The position numbers and the translations under genes are program-made. The notes beneath the pieces were generated by a model. That model made no database searches. It was given only the letters and a program-made list of their open reading frames with translations, and was not told where the DNA came from. A stretch of 64,000 nucleotides of DNA, taken from assembly GCA_900618795.1 (NCBI GenBank), contig UYJD01000003.1, positions 466,585-530,584 on the forward strand, read 5' to 3'. The stretch is from Cyanodermella asteris (lineage: Eukaryota; Ascomycota; Lecanoromycetes; Ostropales; Stictidaceae). Positions 1,360-46,586 of the stretch are shown in pieces. Numbering within the stretch: the first letter of the stretch is position 1; the number at the start of each line of letters is the position of its first letter.

Positions 1360-4218
1360 ATGCCGAACCCGTTGAGAAGACTGCAAGAGCGTCTGACTCC
1401 CGGCTCCGTCAAAGAAAGACGGGCTTCGAAGCTAGGCCTCGCTAGTTCTGACGCTCACGTCGAGACGCAGCGGAATGGCAACCAAGTCATCCAGTCTGGC
1501 ACATCCCAAAGCACTGGCAACCTGCCCAATGGCCACGGCTCCGATATTTCTGTCGGCGGTAAGCGACAGTCGAGAGAGCAGCGCCGAGAAAACCACCGAC
1601 GTTCTGTCGACCAGAAACGTCAAGAGATCCAAAACCAGAGAGAACATGAGGCATGGTTGGCAAAGCAGGAGGATTCGACCGAAATGCTCGCCCGTTATGG
1701 CAACCTGGAGCTGAACCAATCGCAAAAGTGGGACAAAGTTGAGAAGACAAAACTTGGCGACATTGCCAAAAACACGCCATTCGGCAAGGAAATCCTCTTC
1801 ACTGCACGTGTGCACCACATTCGACGCATGAGCGCCCACCTTGTCTTCATCATGCTCAGACAACAGGAATGGTCCATTCAGGGCGTTTTGCAGGAGAAGA
1901 AAGACGTGGTCTCGGTCCACTTTGTCAGATGGGTTGAGCATCTGGATGACGAAGCAATAGTCTTGGTCAAGGGCATCGTCAAGGAGCCCTTGAAGCAAGA
2001 AATCACAAGCGCCTCAATTCATCATGCTGAGATTGAGATTCGCGAGCTGCATCTTGCTTCCAAGATCACCCACAAGCCTCCTTTCACCGTGTACGAGGCA
2101 GACATTACCAATGGAGAATTGGAGAGAGGTGAGCCACGAAGACAGGACATCTCAGACAGGCAGCGTCAGAGGAACAGAATCGTGGATTTGCGAACTGTTA
2201 CCGCACAGTCCATCTTCCGCGTTCAGGCTACCATCTGCAGCGTGTTCCGCGCATCTCTCGAAGAGAAGGGCTTCATGGAGATCCACACACCGAAATTGCA
2301 AGGCGGCGCTACAGAGTCAGGCTCGAGTGTGTTTCAGCTCAACTACTTTGGCAAGCCCGCTTTCCTGGCACAGAGCCCCCAGCTCGCCAAGCAGATGGCT
2401 ATTGCCGGAGACTTCAATAGAGTCTTTGAGATTGGACCGGTGTTTCGAGCCGAGAACTCCAACACACATCGCCATCTGACTGAGTATACTGGACTGGACC
2501 TGGAGATGGCCATTGACGAGCATTATCACGAGGCGTTAACAGTCTTGGATGAGATGTTCAAGAACCTGTGGGCTGGCGTCTACAAGCGCAACCGTCACGA
2601 GGTCGATCTCGTCAAGAGACAGTTTCCTCACGAGGACCTCGTCTGGCTCGATGAGACACCCGTCATCGCCTTTGCAGACGCTGTCAAGATCCTCAATGAC
2701 TCAGGCTGGGAGGACGACGAGGGCAACAAGCAAGATGAATTCGAAGATCTCAGCACACGTGCCGAGATACGCCTTGGTGAGCTCATCAAGGAGAAATACA
2801 AGACAGATTACTACGTCATTGACAAGTTTCCGGCGTCGGCACGACCTTTCTACACTATGCCGGATCCTAACAACGACCGCATCACCAATTCGTTTGACAT
2901 CTTCCTCAGAGGGCAAGAGATCCTTTCTGGCGGCCAGCGTATTCATGATGCAGAAATGCTAGACCGCAAGATGAAGCGTCTCCACCTGCCGCAGGAAGGA
3001 CTCGAGGAGTACATGGACGGGTTCCGCTATGGGGCGCCTCCGCATGCTGGTGGTGGTATTGGTCTCGAGCGTGTTGTAATGCTCTTGCTCTCGCTAGGGG
3101 ACATCAGACATGCCAGTATGTATCCTCGTGATCCGCAGTCGTTCAAGGCGAAGGAGCCCCCATCCGACCAGCTCAGACACCCGGAAGCGAGTACATTACA
3201 TCCGGAATGGGAAGGAAAGCCAAGCAACGAAGGTCATGAGCTTCCACCTATCGAGAAGCTCATCGCAAACTACGGTGATGCTACCTCCACCTCGCTGCTC
3301 GAAGATCGTGTCAAGATCTGGAGGTGTCAAGACACTGGTGCCGCTGTTGGCTACGCTCCGCAAGACCATCACGCAATCGTGCTGGGTGATCCACTCTGTG
3401 ACCGCTCACAGTATGGTAGCGTGATAACAGCTTTCCTGAAGTTCATGGACAAGGAAGAGAAGCTATCACCAATCTGGCTGAATGTCAGTGATGAGGTCGA
3501 AGAGATTCTGGGGCAGAATTTTGCCTGGAAGACAGTCAGCCCGGTCGCAGAAGAGCGCATAGACATCGAAAATCGTACGGCAGCCACTCGTAGGGAAATT
3601 CAGCGCAAGGTCAATCACGCAAAGAAGGAGGGAATCAGCATCAAGGACTACGGGTTCGGAGCCCAGATTCCTGAAGAAGTTCAGAACAATGTCGAAAAGA
3701 GAATACAAGATTGGCAGGCGGGTCGGAAGGGAACGCAGGTCCATCTGACCAAGCTTGAAAAGCGACGCGTCTTCCAGGATTTGGCACATCGCTGGTTCTT
3801 CCTTGCCACCGACAAGAAAGGCACCATTTGTGCGCTAATCTGTCTTCACCAGCTCAGCGCGACACATGGCATGCAAATCAAGTACAGTTTGGATTTCCCT
3901 GATGCCCCCAACGGCGCCATCGAGGCCTGCACGACTTCAGCCATGAACGCCATGAAGGAACAGGGCATCCCGTCCGCTACTTTCGGTGCCGGCGGTACTA
4001 GTGAGCTGACGCCGGGGTACAATCTTAAGGGTATGAGGGTCAAGATGCTCCGACAGACGTACAACAGCCTGATTCCCAAGTTGGGTGTCGCCGGAAAATC
4101 GGAGTTCAGACAGAAGTTGGGAGCCGAAGAGGATCCTTTGCACGTTTGTTATCCCAAGCATGGCTTGGGTGCGGGCGGTACCAAGGCCATCTTGGACTTT
4201 TTGCAAAGCGAGGGCTAA
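1360..4218 (+). CDS. erdS: ErdS: aspartyl-tRNA synthetase-DUF2156 fusion, ergosteryl-3beta-O-L-aspartate synthase
   Basis: Single-exon gene of 952 aa. Residues 1-125 are a charged, K/R/Q/E-rich extension; about 140-235 is the OB-fold anticodon-binding domain; about 280-600 is a class II AspRS core. Motif 2 is visible at 356-383 (FEIGPVFRAENSNTHRHL) and motif 3 at 558-575 (GAPPHAGGGIGLERV). Residues about 640-945 form a DUF2156 (GNAT-like, MprF-type) aminoacyltransferase domain containing GYAPQDHHAIVLGDP and a late SELTPGYNLKGMR stretch. In Aspergillus this fusion charges tRNA-Asp and transfers the aspartate to the 3beta-hydroxyl of ergosterol, making a modified membrane sterol. Length and domain order match. 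The ATG at 1360 is the only one ahead of the conserved core with the typical basic extension. No partner hydrolase (ErdH) is visible in this window. A plain cytosolic AspRS is unlikely because of the C-terminal domain. Confidence 0.93.
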   Translation: MPNPLRRLQERLTPGSVKERRASKLGLASSDAHVETQRNGNQVIQSGTSQSTGNLPNGHGSDISVGGKRQSREQRRENHRRSVDQKRQEIQNQREHEAWLAKQEDSTEMLARYGNLELNQSQKWDKVEKTKLGDIAKNTPFGKEILFTARVHHIRRMSAHLVFIMLRQQEWSIQGVLQEKKDVVSVHFVRWVEHLDDEAIVLVKGIVKEPLKQEITSASIHHAEIEIRELHLASKITHKPPFTVYEADITNGELERGEPRRQDISDRQRQRNRIVDLRTVTAQSIFRVQATICSVFRASLEEKGFMEIHTPKLQGGATESGSSVFQLNYFGKPAFLAQSPQLAKQMAIAGDFNRVFEIGPVFRAENSNTHRHLTEYTGLDLEMAIDEHYHEALTVLDEMFKNLWAGVYKRNRHEVDLVKRQFPHEDLVWLDETPVIAFADAVKILNDSGWEDDEGNKQDEFEDLSTRAEIRLGELIKEKYKTDYYVIDKFPASARPFYTMPDPNNDRITNSFDIFLRGQEILSGGQRIHDAEMLDRKMKRLHLPQEGLEEYMDGFRYGAPPHAGGGIGLERVVMLLLSLGDIRHASMYPRDPQSFKAKEPPSDQLRHPEASTLHPEWEGKPSNEGHELPPIEKLIANYGDATSTSLLEDRVKIWRCQDTGAAVGYAPQDHHAIVLGDPLCDRSQYGSVITAFLKFMDKEEKLSPIWLNVSDEVEEILGQNFAWKTVSPVAEERIDIENRTAATRREIQRKVNHAKKEGISIKDYGFGAQIPEEVQNNVEKRIQDWQAGRKGTQVHLTKLEKRRVFQDLAHRWFFLATDKKGTICALICLHQLSATHGMQIKYSLDFPDAPNGAIEACTTSAMNAMKEQGIPSATFGAGGTSELTPGYNLKGMRVKMLRQTYNSLIPKLGVAGKSEFRQKLGAEEDPLHVCYPKHGLGAGGTKAILDFLQSEG

Positions 4219-32307: not shown

Positions 32308-34431
32308 TCAATCATCGTTCGTGACCGGTCCAAAATGTTGCTCGTGGATGCGTCGAAGGTGGCGGCGATACCACAAGAACGAATCGTAACATCCTCCAAG
32401 CATGAAAGCAAGCAAAACAACTGATCCTCCGTGGTTGGCCTTCTGTGTCATGCTCATAGAATTCATGAGATTGTGCCTGGCTTCCACAAACTTGTCGAAA
32501 ATCGTTTGTACGTTCTTGCTGCCGCCCGATATATCGTTGTCGGGCCTGTTGGGATCGATAATCATCAGTCGTCCAACGTCTGCCTTCATGATCTGTCCGG
32601 TCGAGAGTATGGTCTGTTTACTCTCATAGCCTGGCGGTTCCATTCGAATCGCCGTACGCTCGTAGTTGAATTCCGATCCATACAAATGCAGGAACTCGAT
32701 CAGAATCTCTCCAAGATTGGTCAAAGGATCAAGTTCGCCCGTCTGCACCCGTGGCATGTTTTGTAGAAGGCTAGTGACGAGGCACGTGATGGTGAAGCCT
32801 CCAATACCTCCACACGAAACATCATTCAGACCGCGCATGAGCAAGAACTGCTTGATCACCATCACAATGATTGGCATGGCCGGGAATTCTGCTTTCCAAC
32901 GCTGGAAAGTTGCAATCGCCCCTATTCCGGTCGAATTATCGAAAGAGATGTCGACCTTGATTGAGGTCAACCTATCCACAAATTTGATGATTGGTACCTT
33001 TGATTTGGGAATGACCTGAATGTTGGCATCGGCTAGGCCGGCCCGTTGAAGCTGAAGCGCCAATTTACGCATCTGAGAGGGAGACTGACAGAGTACTGGA
33101 GACCTGTACCCACGTGCTTTGTACTCGGCCGATATTGCAACAACATCCATATCAGCATCTGGGAGATGCAGTCCTGCAGCAAAGGAGCCAAAGACGTGCA
33201 CCTCTGTGCCTGGGAACAGATCGTCCATGAACCTTTCGAGACGAGCGAGGAGATCTCGACGGACGACAGTCTCAAACTTCTTTGGCGCTATGAGATCATG
33301 AAAGTCGAGAATCTCTTGGTGTAAAAGAGCTTTTGCCATTCTTTTGTGCAGACCAGGAGGACGGTACCAAGGGCATGCATTCATCTTGTTAGTGCCGCGA
33401 AACTGCCATTCTTCTGTAACAAAACCTCTTGACATGGGTCCTTTCTTCAAAGATTTGGGTGGAGGTCGCAGCTTAAGAAGCTCGAGATCATCTTCATCGT
33501 TATCGGCTCTCTTTCGTTTCGCGGAGCTCAACCTTGATTGCACCGTGGTAGTGATCTCAACATTTGCAGGTTTCATCGAATGTGAGGGGGCTGTAGGCTG
33601 GGGGTTTGACTGCCTCACGGTGCCGGTAGCAGCTTTGATGGGTCTCGACGCACCAGACACATCCGGTTTGACCAACGTCTCCTCTTCCTCGTCATCAAAA
33701 GCCAGCGAGATAAAGTCGTCATTTGAAGCGATCGCATTTGCTGAAACCTCCTGAGTATCTGTCGGATCCATGCGAGACTTGCGGATGAGCTTGACCACAT
33801 CTTTGCGCTTGCGCTGCGATTCGTCCGGTGGAGGCAGAGCAGTGTATGTCTCTGGGTTAGACCACTTTGGCTTTGGCGGTTCGACGGCCGGGTTGTGCGC
33901 ATCGCCCTGAGCTTCATCCTCGTCTTCGTCGGAGCTGATGAGGTCAACGTACTTAACGCCAGCTTTGCCCTCATTCATGCCCTCGAGCTGTGGAGGCGTG
34001 CGCTCACGAGTGTCTAGCTGGAGCAATTTACGCTCTGATGCACCAGGCTTTCTGTACCCGCCCTGTCTGTTGCCACGTCCGTCGCCTCCATGGTTTTGCC
34101 TGTTGCGACCTCCCTCTTGTCTGCCGCGACGTCTGGCAGCCGTATCGTCGATATCGTCGCGAAGACGACGTGGGTATTGTGGCGGGTATCCATTGATAGG
34201 GGTGAAGTCAAAGTCGTTGCGTTGGGATGGCTGTCCAAAGCGGCGCATATCTTCAGAGGAACGAGGAGGCTCGCGGTAGTCATAGTCGCGACGGTTGTAT
34301 CTGTGGTTGTCGTAGCCAGGACTGCGAGGACGCGGTGGGAGATTATGCGGAGCGCGCGGAGGACCTCTCTGGTACCTGCCTGGATCATCTGGATGTCCGT
34401 TTCCGTTGCCAGGACGGTAGCTGTCGCCCAT
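32308..34431 (-). CDS. Trf4/Cid14-type non-canonical poly(A) polymerase
   Basis: Intronless, 707 aa. Residues 1-130 are RGG/RY-rich and disordered, 160-250 contain acidic SSDEDEDE-type patches, and there is a basic stretch (SAKRKR) near 303. The catalytic nucleotidyltransferase domain starts near 340. The GS motif is VFGSFAAG (G415, S416), the metal-binding DxD is D427/D429 in PDADMDV, and the third acidic residue is D494 in IKVDISFD. The central and PAP-associated domain follows, with IKQFLLMRGLNDVSCGG and later NLGEILIEFLHLYG. Enzymes of this type add short oligo(A) tails to aberrant or non-coding RNAs in TRAMP-like complexes so the nuclear exosome can degrade them. It could equally be labelled Trf5 or Cid14. 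The ATG at 34431 lies ahead of a complete, uninterrupted frame. Confidence 0.92.
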   Translation of the reverse strand: MGDSYRPGNGNGHPDDPGRYQRGPPRAPHNLPPRPRSPGYDNHRYNRRDYDYREPPRSSEDMRRFGQPSQRNDFDFTPINGYPPQYPRRLRDDIDDTAARRRGRQEGGRNRQNHGGDGRGNRQGGYRKPGASERKLLQLDTRERTPPQLEGMNEGKAGVKYVDLISSDEDEDEAQGDAHNPAVEPPKPKWSNPETYTALPPPDESQRKRKDVVKLIRKSRMDPTDTQEVSANAIASNDDFISLAFDDEEEETLVKPDVSGASRPIKAATGTVRQSNPQPTAPSHSMKPANVEITTTVQSRLSSAKRKRADNDEDDLELLKLRPPPKSLKKGPMSRGFVTEEWQFRGTNKMNACPWYRPPGLHKRMAKALLHQEILDFHDLIAPKKFETVVRRDLLARLERFMDDLFPGTEVHVFGSFAAGLHLPDADMDVVAISAEYKARGYRSPVLCQSPSQMRKLALQLQRAGLADANIQVIPKSKVPIIKFVDRLTSIKVDISFDNSTGIGAIATFQRWKAEFPAMPIIVMVIKQFLLMRGLNDVSCGGIGGFTITCLVTSLLQNMPRVQTGELDPLTNLGEILIEFLHLYGSEFNYERTAIRMEPPGYESKQTILSTGQIMKADVGRLMIIDPNRPDNDISGGSKNVQTIFDKFVEARHNLMNSMSMTQKANHGGSVVLLAFMLGGCYDSFLWYRRHLRRIHEQHFGPVTNDD

Positions 34432-42612: not shown

Positions 42613-42802
42613 CCAATGGCAGTCCTCTGATCCGTCCTCTTGGCATCGTTGACTGAGTCGCTCTCTGCCTGGCTTGTCCAACCAGCTGGACAACTCCATC
42701 CAATGGCAAACTCCAGACTCGGCTCCTTGACCTCACGATCTGTCTGCCTACAAGCCGGTTGACTCATTCCCCCACGCTTGCAGCCTCCAAATGTCTATAT
42801 AA
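42613..42802 (+). promoter_or_regulatory. CCAAT and TATA elements, likely bidirectional promoter
   Basis: Two CCAAT boxes (42613-42617 and 42710-42714) and a strong TATATAA (42796-42802) lie between the Mgm101 start (42424, -) and the repeat locus (43043 onward, +). A pyrimidine-rich stretch about 30 bases after the TATA box is a plausible transcription start. The TATA box is oriented towards the repeat locus, which has no convincing protein-coding gene. Confidence 0.5.
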
Positions 42803-43042
42803 GCCTGTTCGATTCCCCTTCTCAACGTCTTCTCATCACGCTTCCTACGCCTCTTTGGCTAAGATCAAGTGTAGTATCTGTTCTTTTCAGCTTAGCCGCT
42901 GGAATGCGCGCTACTCGCCGCAATCGCTTTGGTTCATTTCTTGGAACTCGAGTGTCGTCGACCTAGCTCGCTCGGTCGCCTCACTCTCCTGTGTCGCTGG
43001 TCTTTACACTGCCGCCGGCTGACGCAACCCTATCCTCTACCT

Positions 43043-43881
43043 TGTTGCTTGACCATCTGTCCGCACCTTCTCGTGGTGTCAAGCGTCGGTCCTTGTGCTC
43101 CTTGAGCATGACGAAGCCAAGACGGACTCCAGAAAAATCTCTTCTGCCGGGGCAGTAGCTAGAAACATCTTACCTTCGGGTAGTCTCTGGTTGACTTTTT
43201 GCCTGCGGACTTTGTCTGCTAGGCACTGCCCTTCCCTTCTTTGCTTGACTGGAGTTCGCACCTTCTCGCGGTGTCAAGCGTCAGTACTCGTGCTCTTGAG
43301 CATCTGGAAGCTAAGACGAACTCAATGAACATGCTTTTGCTGGGGCAGTAGCTAGAAACATCTTACCTTCGGGTAGTCTTTGGTTGACTTCTGCCTGCAG
43401 ACTCTGTCTGCTAGGCACTGCCCTTTACTCTTTGCTTGACTCGAATTCGCACCTTCTCGCGGTGTCAAGTGTCAGTAGCTGTGCTGTTGAGCATAGCGAA
43501 GCCAAGACGAATTCTTTCCCCAAACTCATTGATCTGCTGGGGCAGTAGCTGCGTTCTGAACAAAACTTACCTTGTTTTGGCGCGGACACCCCTGCCCTCA
43601 CTTCAACACAACCTTTGCTGCATCATATTGTTCATGCGCTCGCGGCCTATATCTTGCCCTTCGCAATGCGGAGGTAAGATGGGTTGCGAGGATATGATGC
43701 AGTCGTCCGCTCAAGGCACAATTTTTGATTGACTACCACATACATTTTCGCCTGGCAACGGATTCACACCTTCTCGCGGTGCCAGGTGTCAGTATCCGCC
43801 CTCGGGCTGGAGAAGCTGAGTTGAATCTGAACAAGACCTGGTCCTGTGCTGCATGCAATGTTGCCTTGCCTTTTTCCAGGT
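43043..43881. repeat. Diverged tandem repeat, four copies, period about 195, 191 and 317 bases
   Basis: The near-constant core CACCTTCTCGCGGTG starts at 43064 (one mismatch), 43259, 43450 and 43767. Copies 1 and 2 also share the long block GCAGTAGCTAGAAACATCTT followed by ACCTTCGGGTAGTC and CTGCTAGGCACTGCCC. Copy 3 carries an inserted hairpin, which explains the longer spacing to copy 4. Confidence 0.9.
43618..43702 (+). ncRNA. 85-nt imperfect hairpin inside repeat copy 3
   Basis: Three nested stems: 43618-43628 with 43692-43702 (11 perfect pairs), 43639-43647 with 43682-43690 (9 pairs, two G.U), and 43651-43658 with 43673-43680 (8 pairs, one G.U). The G.U pairs would be C.A mismatches in a minus-strand RNA, so the + strand is the likely transcript. 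The length is in the range of a Dicer-type substrate, but processing is not shown. Confidence 0.6.
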
Positions 43882-43890
43882 AACACCATC

Positions 43891-44843
43891 AGCGCGGTCC
43901 GTATGTCAAACAAATCTTTGTGTTTCATACTGGCAAATGCCATCAGATTAAATCTTTCATAATATGAACAGCTTGACTGTGCATTTTAAGAAGGGTTCTT
44001 ATGACTCTTGAACGATGCTCTGCCGAATTATGGGCTCTGGATGCAGGTTTCTTCGGCTGGGCAGGGGTAAATCCCAAAAGGTGCTTATGTAATTCAATGC
44101 CATCGACTTGATTTACATTTCCTCATTCGATCGTGACAGCTGCACAGCTGATGGCAGGTTTCGATACGCTCTCGAACGTCGTACTAAACACTCGATATTG
44201 TAACCAGAGCAGCTTCCAGATGGTAGTTCCCCCGCATACTGTGCGCAGGCTTCGGATGTCTCCGACTTGCTGGGTTAGCCGATACGCAAAAGACTGAAGC
44301 TGAGACGACTGTTCACAGTCACTCCTGGGACGCATCGTGGTTGGCGCTGCTGGACCAAGCAGCTGGGAAGCTGTCAGTCTCTCCTGTTACTCTTCTCGCC
44401 TCGAGCTGTTCGCTGGTTACATACCCTCATCTGAGCAGGCATTGTGTGTCCAGCAAGTGCACGGCATGTCTTGCTAGGTACTGCCCAAATTGCAATGATT
44501 CATCGAGCTCTGAGGGACGCGGATCTATCATTGGGGCATGACCCATTGTGCGTTCTTCGGGTCGCGTAAGTTATTCATATGCCAAACGGCCTCCGATCAT
44601 TGCCCGCGTGATTGCACGCACTGACGTGGTTGCTCAACACCCCAAGTTTGCTACGATCCCGCAATCCGCCATCTGAGTCGGCTCGCCTGTAGGCCATGAT
44701 TCCGTCACTCCCACTGTCAGAGCTCTTGGAGCTTCTTTGAGCTGCGCCTTTGCAAAGCCCGAACACGCACAAGGCGACATTTGTCTTTTCCTTGTGTCTT
44801 CTCGCTCTTTTTTTGTTTCCTTACCAACCTAATCCAGTCAAGC
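43891..44843. other. Intergenic, no gene seen
   Basis: Region between the repeat locus and the two-TM protein gene. Open frames are short and unlike known families. It presumably contains the promoter of the gene at 44844. Confidence 0.45.
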
Positions 44844-46586
44844 ATGTCAAAACGTGCGTTTCCGTTATTATGGAGGACTCCGCGAAGCGAGAAACCTACC
44901 GAGACCCTTCCGGTGGGCGCTGATTCTCTTCTTCATGCGGGGTTTATGGCTCGTCATCGAAGCACTAATCCGGCAGAACTTTCTGCCAATGACCTGGCGG
45001 CCTATATTGCAGAAGTGCAACAGCAAATCGATGAGCCTGACCGCAGAGGCTCTGACAGTGCAGCGTCGGGCGAGATTGCACTCACTCTGAGGGACAAACG
45101 CTCCCTCCGGAATGAAAGGATCACGTGGTGCCTCACCATCATTATCACACAGCTTTTATACATCTCAACGATCGTTTCCTTGGTTCTTTTCATCGTCAAA
45201 TTCAAGACCATCGGCAATCCGGGATATCTCATCTGGTTCCTCTTGAGCTTTGGCTTCATGTTCGCTGCCACAATTGCCCTCGGCGTACTCTGGGACCGGC
45301 GACGAACGACCCGGCAGATCAAGCGCGTGGTGATGAAGCTAGAAGCGGGGAGATGGAGACAAGCAGCGCAGGAGAGACAACTGCAGGCTGAAAGGGCAGG
45401 AATGGTGACTGAGCGACTCAGAACAAGTACCCATACGGGTCCATCCGCACCAACAAGAGATGGGAACCTACAAAGAAGCGAAGGGGTGGGGGCGCAGTAC
45501 GGTGTTGACCAGCGGATCATGCATCCTCGCCTTCCGGAACTTCCACAACACAATATGCAAACACCGACCGCGAGCTTGTCGATGATCTCCGGTCAAAGCC
45601 CTCCAGCGCCTTTTTCCAATCCTCAACCTGGAGCAACATCCGTCCTTCCTGACGGTGTCGGCCCTTCCGTTCCTCATGAAGATCCGACCTCACCAATCAG
45701 TCCTTCTACATACGCCGGCCGCTACTCGGCCGAGCACCATAATCCCAAGACCCCAATCTCACGAGCTGGATCTCCATCTGACAACATTCCATTACCATAC
45801 AAACGAGCCTCCCAACTCAGCAACGGCGACGAACGCAAGGGCGGCGTGAACATTGCACCACCCGTAGCCTCCATCCAAAGCCGCGACCAAAGAGCGGCCA
45901 ACGAATCACGCAAAAGCGGTACCGCAGATCCAGCTACATTTCAGCAAAGCGATACCGTCATGCCGCCACCGACGAGCGGGCACTCCTCGACACCACGTGC
46001 GTCCGCCCTCGTCCAAGACATCTTCCACACCCTGGACGGAACCCCCTCCACCAACCAAGCCCCTCTGCCTACCCGCAAAGGCCACTCCCGCAGCGTCACG
46101 GAACTCACCTCTCGCAGCCTCCCCGCCATCCCCCCGCCTCCGGTCGAACTCCCCGCCGAACACCCACACCACCGAGCCGCATCTACGGCATCGGACAACC
46201 GCAGCCCCGCATCCTCCGGCCGCCGGGATGCCCTCCCAGACGACCACCCGAAACGGCTGTCTTCGCTGCGCAATTACACCGACTCGGTGTCCGTGCTCGA
46301 GCCGGAGCTGCGGAAACAGCTCGATGCCCGGTCGAGCGAGAGCAGAGAGGCCGTGTCGCCTCGTGTTCCGAGTGAGCCGATGCCGGGCCCGAGGCCGACG
46401 ACGGCGTATGCCGAAGACGGGTGGGGTGCGTTTGCTAGATTCAATCTGCCGCCGTATCCGGGTGCTCGGGCGCAGGTGTCGCAGCACGGCGGAGCGGGGG
46501 GGGCTCGGCGTGGAGGACGATTGTTCTGGCCGCTTGAAAAAGCCGCAGAGACAGGCGAAACTAGAACGACAGGATGGCAACGATAG
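44844..46586 (+). CDS. Fungal two-TM membrane protein with long Pro/Ser-rich tail
   Basis: Intronless frame of 580 aa from the ATG at 44844 (MSKRAFPLLWRTPRSEK). Residues 1-92 are polar with an AYIAEVQQQIDEP helix. Two hydrophobic segments follow at about 93-118 (WCLTIIITQLLYISTIVSLV) and 127-150 (YLIWFLLSFGFMFAATIALG), separated by a short loop, then WDRRRTTRQIKRV and a short coiled coil. The remaining 400 residues are Pro/Ser/Thr-rich and look disordered, with many SP sites. I know this layout from uncharacterised ascomycete proteins but can name no function. Both termini are probably on the same side of the membrane. An upstream exon is possible because the frame stays open to 44781. Confidence 0.7.
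   Translation: MSKRAFPLLWRTPRSEKPTETLPVGADSLLHAGFMARHRSTNPAELSANDLAAYIAEVQQQIDEPDRRGSDSAASGEIALTLRDKRSLRNERITWCLTIIITQLLYISTIVSLVLFIVKFKTIGNPGYLIWFLLSFGFMFAATIALGVLWDRRRTTRQIKRVVMKLEAGRWRQAAQERQLQAERAGMVTERLRTSTHTGPSAPTRDGNLQRSEGVGAQYGVDQRIMHPRLPELPQHNMQTPTASLSMISGQSPPAPFSNPQPGATSVLPDGVGPSVPHEDPTSPISPSTYAGRYSAEHHNPKTPISRAGSPSDNIPLPYKRASQLSNGDERKGGVNIAPPVASIQSRDQRAANESRKSGTADPATFQQSDTVMPPPTSGHSSTPRASALVQDIFHTLDGTPSTNQAPLPTRKGHSRSVTELTSRSLPAIPPPPVELPAEHPHHRAASTASDNRSPASSGRRDALPDDHPKRLSSLRNYTDSVSVLEPELRKQLDARSSESREAVSPRVPSEPMPGPRPTTAYAEDGWGAFARFNLPPYPGARAQVSQHGGAGGARRGGRLFWPLEKAAETGETRTTGWQR

Follow-up and report, generated by a model that had tools for sequence, protein, structure and literature searches.

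A divergent U2 gene heads an array of RNA elements on one strand

Within the window, by which we mean the whole 64,000-nt stretch of DNA analysed, we identified an array of RNA elements that all lie on the + strand, within 1.15 kb and behind one TATA box. The array opens with a divergent U2 snRNA and continues with predicted ribozymes (Rz1 to Rz4), folded segments (X1 to X3) and a putative U5-like RNA.

42613-42617 and 42700-42704: CCAAT boxes upstream of the TATA box, read directly
42796..42802, + strand: TATA box TATATAA of the U2 variant, read directly
42837..43034, + strand: divergent U2 snRNA (Rfam RF00004, 92 bits, cut-off 46, E 5e-17)
42936-42944: Sm-like word of the U2 variant, ATTTCTTGG
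43047..43127, + strand: predicted HDV-like ribozyme Rz1, predicted cut before G43047 (covariation, descriptor; RF02682 18.6 bits, cut-off 44)
43145..43236, + strand: X1, three-way junction (MFE z -3.46, 1/200 shuffles as low)
43194-43201: Sm-like word of X1, ACTTTTTG (mean unpaired 0.80)
43243..43321, + strand: predicted HDV-like ribozyme Rz2, predicted cut before G43243 (covariation, descriptor)
43338..43427, + strand: X2, near-duplicate of X1 (MFE z -3.46, 0/200 shuffles as low)
43387-43393: Sm-like word of X2, ACTTCTG (mean unpaired 0.73)
43434..43512, + strand: predicted HDV-like ribozyme Rz3, predicted cut before G43434 (covariation, descriptor; RF02682 18.6 bits, below cut-off)
43536..43728, + strand: X3 (first hairpin z -2.26, 4/200 shuffles as low)
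43566-43573: CTTACCTT of X3, whose hairpin loop shows ACTTACC
43617-43702: long hairpin of X3 (z -6.51, 0/200 shuffles as low)
43720-43728: Sm-like word of X3, AATTTTTGA (mean unpaired 0.46)
43750..43826, + strand: predicted HDV-like ribozyme Rz4, predicted cut before G43750 (covariation, descriptor)
43839..43940, + strand: putative U5-like RNA (RF00020 26.2 bits, cut-off 40)
43859-43866/43878-43885: 8-bp stem of the U5-like RNA, with the 11-nt loop UGCCUUUUUCC at 43867-43877
43913-43921: Sm-like word of the U5-like RNA, AATCTTTGT

The U2 RNA at 42837-43034 was the single match above cut-off in an Rfam scan of the window, and its alignment to RF00004 is full-length, covering model positions 1-192 of 192 and ending complete at 43034. 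Two other U2 genes in the genome (28.5 Mb searched, in 25 contigs) score higher against the same model, with 144.9 and 138.1 bits. The variant equals these genes in the span that runs from AGATCAAG to TTCAG and includes the branch-recognition stretch; outside this span it is widely different. Relative to RF00004, the branch-recognition stretch is unchanged, whereas stem IIb, stem III and the Sm region are largely rewritten. Despite this rewriting, we could find stems I, IIa, IIb and IV as well as an Sm-like word, and stem III folds in the variant as it does in the other U2 genes. When stems I, IIa, IIb and IV were compared with those of the other U2 genes, 25 of the 26 compared pairs were kept, 6 of them with changes on both sides, and within stem IIb all six pairs were kept and five had changed on both sides (one bulged base allowed). 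The fold energy is modestly below that of shuffled sequences (z -2.49, 3/200 as low). Because the stem pairs have been conserved through double-sided changes, the comparison favours a maintained U2 variant over a dead copy.

The TATATAA and CCAAT words lie where the original prediction had placed them, at 42796-42802 and at 42613-42617 and 42700-42704. The distance from TATA to the U2 word GATCAAG is 67 nt in the variant; the two other U2 genes have 74 and 81 nt, and since this spacing is so similar, the TATA box is most simply the U2 variant's own. The proposal of a single four-domain RNA with its own promoter is thereby lost, as the TATA box fronts the U2 variant and the repeated domains appear to be ribozyme cores. 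Open reading frames of at least 40 aa that overlap 42790-44000 number 15, the longest being 98 aa, and ARAGORN in its bacterial setting found no tRNA in the window.

The repeated cores are predicted HDV-like ribozymes

The repeat copies start at 43059, 43254, 43445 and 43762, head-to-tail, with the first three units 191-195 nt apart, and a covariance model returned four matches at the locus, which agrees with the four diverged tandem units described originally. The helix named stem A there corresponds to P1 (7 bp), and it pairs in 28 of 28 cells, including the two compensated pairs claimed for copy 4. Stem B corresponds to P4 and was found as described in copies 1-3, but in copy 4 the pairing GCCC/GGGC would leave a loop of only 2 nt, and we reread it as GCC/GGC with the loop CTCG. 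The original prediction had missed, besides the U2 snRNA, two helices that complete the architecture. One is the P3 hairpin, ACC/GGU enclosing a seven-base loop; the other is the P2 pseudoknot, in which the strand before P3 pairs with the strand after P4 (GUCCG/CGGAC, GUUCG/CGAAC, AUUCG/CGAAU and AUUCA/UGAAU in copies 1-4).

The 19 pairs make 76 cells over the four copies, of which 75 hold standard pairs; six of the pairs show double-sided changes, and neither value was reached in any of 500 shuffles. The single failing cell belongs to P4 of copy 4, where the stem shifts in the alignment. One of five covariation measures, the count of further pair types, behaved differently: 351/500 shuffles reached its four-copy value and 8/500 its six-copy value. 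The six-copy set consists of the four copies at the locus and two dispersed, paralogous copies of the same genome (L020 and L021, described below). In this set all 90 cells of P1, P2 and P3 are paired, and double-sided changes occur in 10 of 15 pairs, including the five of P2; in slid controls pairing dropped to 28-45%. All six copies share the nested pseudoknot P1/P2/P3 with P1' directly after P3', and the letters of the catalytic core (L3 and J4/2) are kept while those of the helices vary. The earlier view that this is structured RNA with covarying stems, under selection on RNA structure, is borne out.

A loose HDV descriptor matched all four cores and one other place in the window (34125), while shuffled windows gave a mean of 2.1 matches on both strands (60 shuffles). 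The match at 34125 is no more than the chance rate. Requiring P4 and the J4/2 motif C-N-R-A before P2', the descriptor recovered four of four cores with P4 of at least 3 bp and three of four with at least 4 bp. For the ribozyme call the descriptor alone is modest evidence and the covariation is strong evidence. The Rfam model of the F. prausnitzii HDV ribozyme (RF02682) aligned to copies 1 and 3, in both cases below its cut-off.

Several sequence details point to a particular class. An extra C lies between P2 and P3 in all six copies, and by sequence GAA is present in all six and AGUA in five, being absent from Rz1. AGUA/GAA may be the E-loop (loop-E-like) motif that replaces part of P4. The first P1 pair is G-C in two copies and G-U in four, so that the typical C-G is absent, and the bases preceding cut sites 1-4 are U, U, U and C. 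Fungal variant HDV ribozymes, described in 2017 from 230 examples in 26 species, have one more nucleotide between P2 and P3, mostly C, and an E-loop motif where part of P4 would otherwise be, and they cut in vitro; a C-G pair at the cleavage site is typical of them but not obligatory (PMC5640933, available text). The cores at the locus resemble this class, as far as that text describes it, in the nested pseudoknot, the extra C, the putative loop-E-like AGUA/GAA and the predicted cut at the P1 base, and they differ from it in the first P1 pair (G-C or G-U) and in standing four in tandem behind an snRNA (PMC5640933). On these sequence grounds we assign the four cores to the HDV-like self-cleaving ribozymes of the fungal variant class, with cleavage as a prediction, and the repeated domain is accordingly of a known fungal type, where the original prediction knew of no fungal RNA of this design. 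The J4/2 segment of Rz4 reads CTGAGT where the others have C(C/T)AAGA. Since Rz1 lacks AGUA and Rz4 has CUGAGU in J4/2, the activity of these two is less sure.

Ribozymes of the same type occur elsewhere in the genome

A genome search with the P3/L3 core, allowing at most one mismatch, found seven places, of which the four at the array locus were exact and three carried one mismatch; the reversed control gave nine. We scored the places with a covariance model built from the four locus copies with P2 left out. Two dispersed HDV-like ribozymes of the same type emerged:

L021:1484-1562 (G000:C18 near 760507), 32.0 bits
L020:1483-1560 (G000:C7 near 324543), 23.9 bits

Both form P2 (GGAGAGA/UCUCUCC and GGCAGA/UCUGCC). 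As they had been found by the P3/L3 core and scored without P2, and yet both form this helix, they provide independent support for the fold. The third core place (L022) was rejected, having a 16-nt core match only and 9.1 bits (E 0.67) with the model. The F. prausnitzii HDV model, applied genome-wide, returned L004-L006 with 18.5-23.1 bits, all below cut-off; the array locus was absent from this result, and none of the three matched the P2-less model. A weak third model match (12.8 bits, E 0.02) lies at L198:1438-1540 on the - strand, on the same contig piece as the L021 ribozyme.

No Rfam snRNA match above cut-off was found in the 3-kb loci around the L020 and L021 ribozymes, and the class therefore also occurs in other settings. 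Conversely, the ribozyme model found no match at eight loci of other snRNA genes (L007, L008, L010-L015), each taken with its flanking 1.5 kb, and standard snRNAs are therefore not made by a ribozyme route. The two other U2 genes, in particular, have no ribozymes behind them, unlike the variant.

Folded segments with Sm-like words separate the ribozymes

X1, X2 and X3 fold more stably than shuffled sequences, most strongly in the long hairpin of X3. In X1 and X2 the Sm-like word is largely single-stranded in the fold, whereas in the X3 model it is mostly paired (0.46); in the same test the Sm-like words of the genome's U1 and U2 gave 0.41 and 0.39. The pairing GGGCAGT/ACTGCCC with its cUUCGg loop, proposed originally as stem C, can be found behind copies 1 and 2, with a shorter form behind copy 3, but it belongs to the folded segments there and lies outside the repeated core. 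The very stable long hairpin of X3, in 43613-43705, pairs a 5'-splice-site-like GGUAAGAU with AUCUUGCC.

The three segments have short words in common. GGGGCAGUAGCU is common to X1, X2 and X3, and CTTACCTT occurs in each of them and at one further place on the + strand of the window. Of CUUACCUU the window has four occurrences, all on the + strand, and three of them lie in X1, X2 and X3. It is complementary to AAGGUAAG, a strong 5' splice site, and forms part of the U1 5' end AUACUUACCUUGG, which we took from the genome's three U1 candidates (43-46 bits, Rfam cut-off 69.5). In X1 and X2 the word lies partly inside the UUCG hairpin, and in X3 it is within a hairpin loop. AAUUUUUGA stands near the 3' end of X3.

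Comparison of X1-X3 with the genome's U1, U2, U4 and U6 (200 shuffles each) gave no convincing similarity: the best case was X2 with U2 (3/200), while X1 with U2 reached only 23/200. An Rfam search at E <=10 over 43040-43760 returned, apart from two HDV matches, only mir-320, HIV_FS2 and DicF, all three far below their cut-offs. Duplex predictions among the products and the snRNAs (15 pairs, 100 shuffles) ranked X1 with the U2 variant (3/100), X2 with X3 (4/100), X1 with U6 (7/100) and X1 with X3 (10/100) lowest, in a test whose positive control, U4/U6, failed at 27/100. By eye, CAUCUUACCU in X1 and X2 fits AGGUAAGAUG in X3. We regard X1-X3 as unassigned candidate Sm-type RNAs. A spliced-leader role for X3 was weighed and set aside.

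A putative U5-like RNA follows the last ribozyme

The segment behind Rz4 matched the U5 model RF00020 with an E-value of 0.17 in 1301 nt and 0.023 in 171 nt, each across 4227 families; dividing 0.17 by 4227 gives about 4e-5 for U5 alone. The stem-loop has a z of -3.66 with 0/200 shuffles as low. Like U5, the segment has an 11-nt loop with GCCUUUU on a stem and an Sm-like word downstream; unlike U5 it scores below the family cut-off, is headed by a ribozyme, and continues the loop after GCCUUUU with a fifth U where the Rfam U5 consensus has A. The original prediction had placed a replaced stem C, ACCTGG/CCAGGT, after copy 4, but these letters overlap the U5-like stem-loop, which folds differently. 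We suggest that the RNA after Rz4 may be U5-like, bearing in mind that the match is below cut-off.

Non-exhaustive searches for another U5 in the genome found none. By DNA similarity the U5-like RNA matched only itself among the best candidates scored. The Rfam model found none among the best 46 of 908 candidates, and the array locus was likewise unreported there. A first pattern search found 0 places; a second found 30 (15 in the reversed control), among which an 11-nt loop on a stem of at least 5 bp occurred at the array locus only; and a third found seven (10 in the control), with a best stem of 5 bp.

A model of self-processing and its alternatives

We favour, with a probability of about 0.62, the reading that the locus encodes small-nuclear-type RNAs in an array punctuated by ribozymes, in which one transcript would cut itself into a U2-like RNA, three Sm-type candidates and a U5-like RNA. 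The TATA promoter would start a transcript opening with the divergent, structurally kept U2 snRNA. HDV-like ribozymes cut at the first P1 nucleotide (PMC4908430, available text), and each of the four, all on the same strand, would cut at its own 5' edge, before 43047, 43243, 43434 and 43750. After cut 1 the U2 variant would come free, extended by 12 nt past its Rfam match, and the further products would be three RNAs composed of a ribozyme and a folded body (X1, X2 and X3, with their Sm-like words) and one composed of a ribozyme and the U5-like RNA. Cistron separation and 3'-end formation of the snRNAs would both be taken over by the ribozymes; for other snRNAs these tasks fall to ribonucleases or the Integrator complex. 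The identity of the U2 variant, the ribozyme architecture with its covariation, the order and strand of the parts and the strong folding of the bodies are computed results, while a single transcript, cleavage in the cell, Sm binding, the identity of the U5-like RNA and any part in splicing are inferred.

The main rival, which we consider unlikely, is a variant U2 gene followed by small non-autonomous retroelements that are unrelated to it and stand in tandem, every one with an HDV-like ribozyme at its head, as in R2 and the L1Tc clade. Such ribozymes are known at the 5' ends of these elements, where, as would happen at the array, an RNA is freed from an upstream co-transcript (PMC3774820 and PMC4035085, available text), and the head-to-tail order of the units with its regular spacing in the first three would suit them. 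Against this, the bodies at the locus carry Sm-like words and a U5-type loop. The dispersed loci share only the ribozyme core with the array locus, and L020 and L021 share with each other the core and short matches elsewhere. The rival is weakened because the genome search, among the best candidates scored, found the X2 unit and the U5-like body at the array locus only, so that dispersed body copies of the kind expected from such elements did not appear, and because no common bodies lie near the dispersed ribozymes.

Some yeasts have very long U2 RNAs, and the array might likewise encode a single long, uncut U2-type RNA with a structured 3' extension, the ribozyme folds being stable domains only. 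The common strand, the short distances, the lack of a further recognised promoter and the departures of Rz1 and Rz4 from the motif would all fit, but we hold this to be quite unlikely, as the U2 match is already complete at 43034, the L3 and J4/2 letters are kept while helix letters vary, and the same fold recurs at two other places in the genome. The in vitro cutting reported for the fungal type (PMC5640933, available text) also argues against purely structural domains.

It is still less probable that the ribozymes serve U2 only, forming its 3' end and helping to degrade the rest, with X1-X3 and the U5-like piece functionless. Cut 1 does fall just behind U2, X1-X3 have no known relatives and the U5 match is below cut-off; yet one ribozyme would suffice for this purpose, the bodies fold better than shuffles (z -6.5 in the long hairpin), and CTTACCTT recurs in three X segments but has a single further occurrence on the window's + strand. 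A decaying cluster of snRNA pseudogenes, to which the lower score of the U2 variant than of its two other copies and the deviations of Rz1 and Rz4 at motif positions might point, is highly improbable, since decay does not make paired changes such as those in stem IIb (6/6 pairs kept, 5 double-sided) and in P2 (5/5 pairs kept in all six copies, with double-sided changes in every pair).

Relation to known systems

The ribozyme class, U2 and U5 are each known, and it is their combination that appears to be new. The fungal HDV ribozymes are credited with 'widely variable gene associations', among which the available text does not name snRNA arrays (PMC5640933). No report of ribozymes separating snRNAs appeared among the matches listed in a search of open-licence PMC titles and abstracts. 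The closest parallel is offered by the theta ribozymes of gut phages, minimal HDV-like ribozymes that lie beside tRNAs, are proposed to make tRNA 3' ends and were presented by their authors as previously unreported (PMC10879173, available text). In both systems the cut site of an HDV-like ribozyme follows a gene for a small structured RNA, but the ribozymes here are of the larger fungal type, stand behind U2 and Sm-type candidate RNAs in a eukaryote, and by ARAGORN in its bacterial setting have no adjacent tRNA gene of the kind described for theta (PMC10879173).

A recognisable U2 gene on one side and a U5-like gene on the other suggest a concrete task for the ribozymes between them, the self-processing of an snRNA polycistron. 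If the reading of a ribozyme-punctuated array is true, the cell would have a new way of making splicing RNAs, in which snRNA 3' ends form without protein. The locus would then be a eukaryotic counterpart of the trimming of tRNAs that has been proposed for theta ribozymes, and it might also provide a variant set of splicing RNAs. A bolder extension, which we consider unlikely, is that the U2 variant, the U5-like RNA and three new Sm-type RNAs with CUUACCUU form a dedicated set that would work alongside the standard snRNAs, either as an alternative spliceosome or in selecting splice sites.

Further observations

Among viral contigs, a search for the exact core gave 0 matches. Eight contigs (L061-L068) carry the core CACCTTCACGTGGTG together with CCAAGA; in seven of these a script found P1, P2 and the J4/2 motif, the eighth being cut by the contig end, and the covariance model scored five of the eight at E <0.01. 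Full HDV-like folds in these contigs lie mostly between small ORFs, and tRNAs are present only in L065. A second pattern matched nine viral contigs, none of which had the fold by script (0/9). A pattern scan of prokaryotes matched at least 119 stretches, and among the matches listed one of 119 (L140) passed a loose script test.

The window also holds protein genes. The array locus is neighboured by a poly(A) polymerase gene, whose best protein hit has 51% identity; the next named hits, at 39-40%, come from Xylographa and Lambiella, both Lecanoromycetes, so that the host is an ascomycete, probably close to the lichen fungi. Positions 1360-4218 encode a fusion of a class II tRNA synthetase with an LPG_synthase_C domain, and a separate ORF at 44781-46586 has a weak LPG_synthase_TM match below cut-off.
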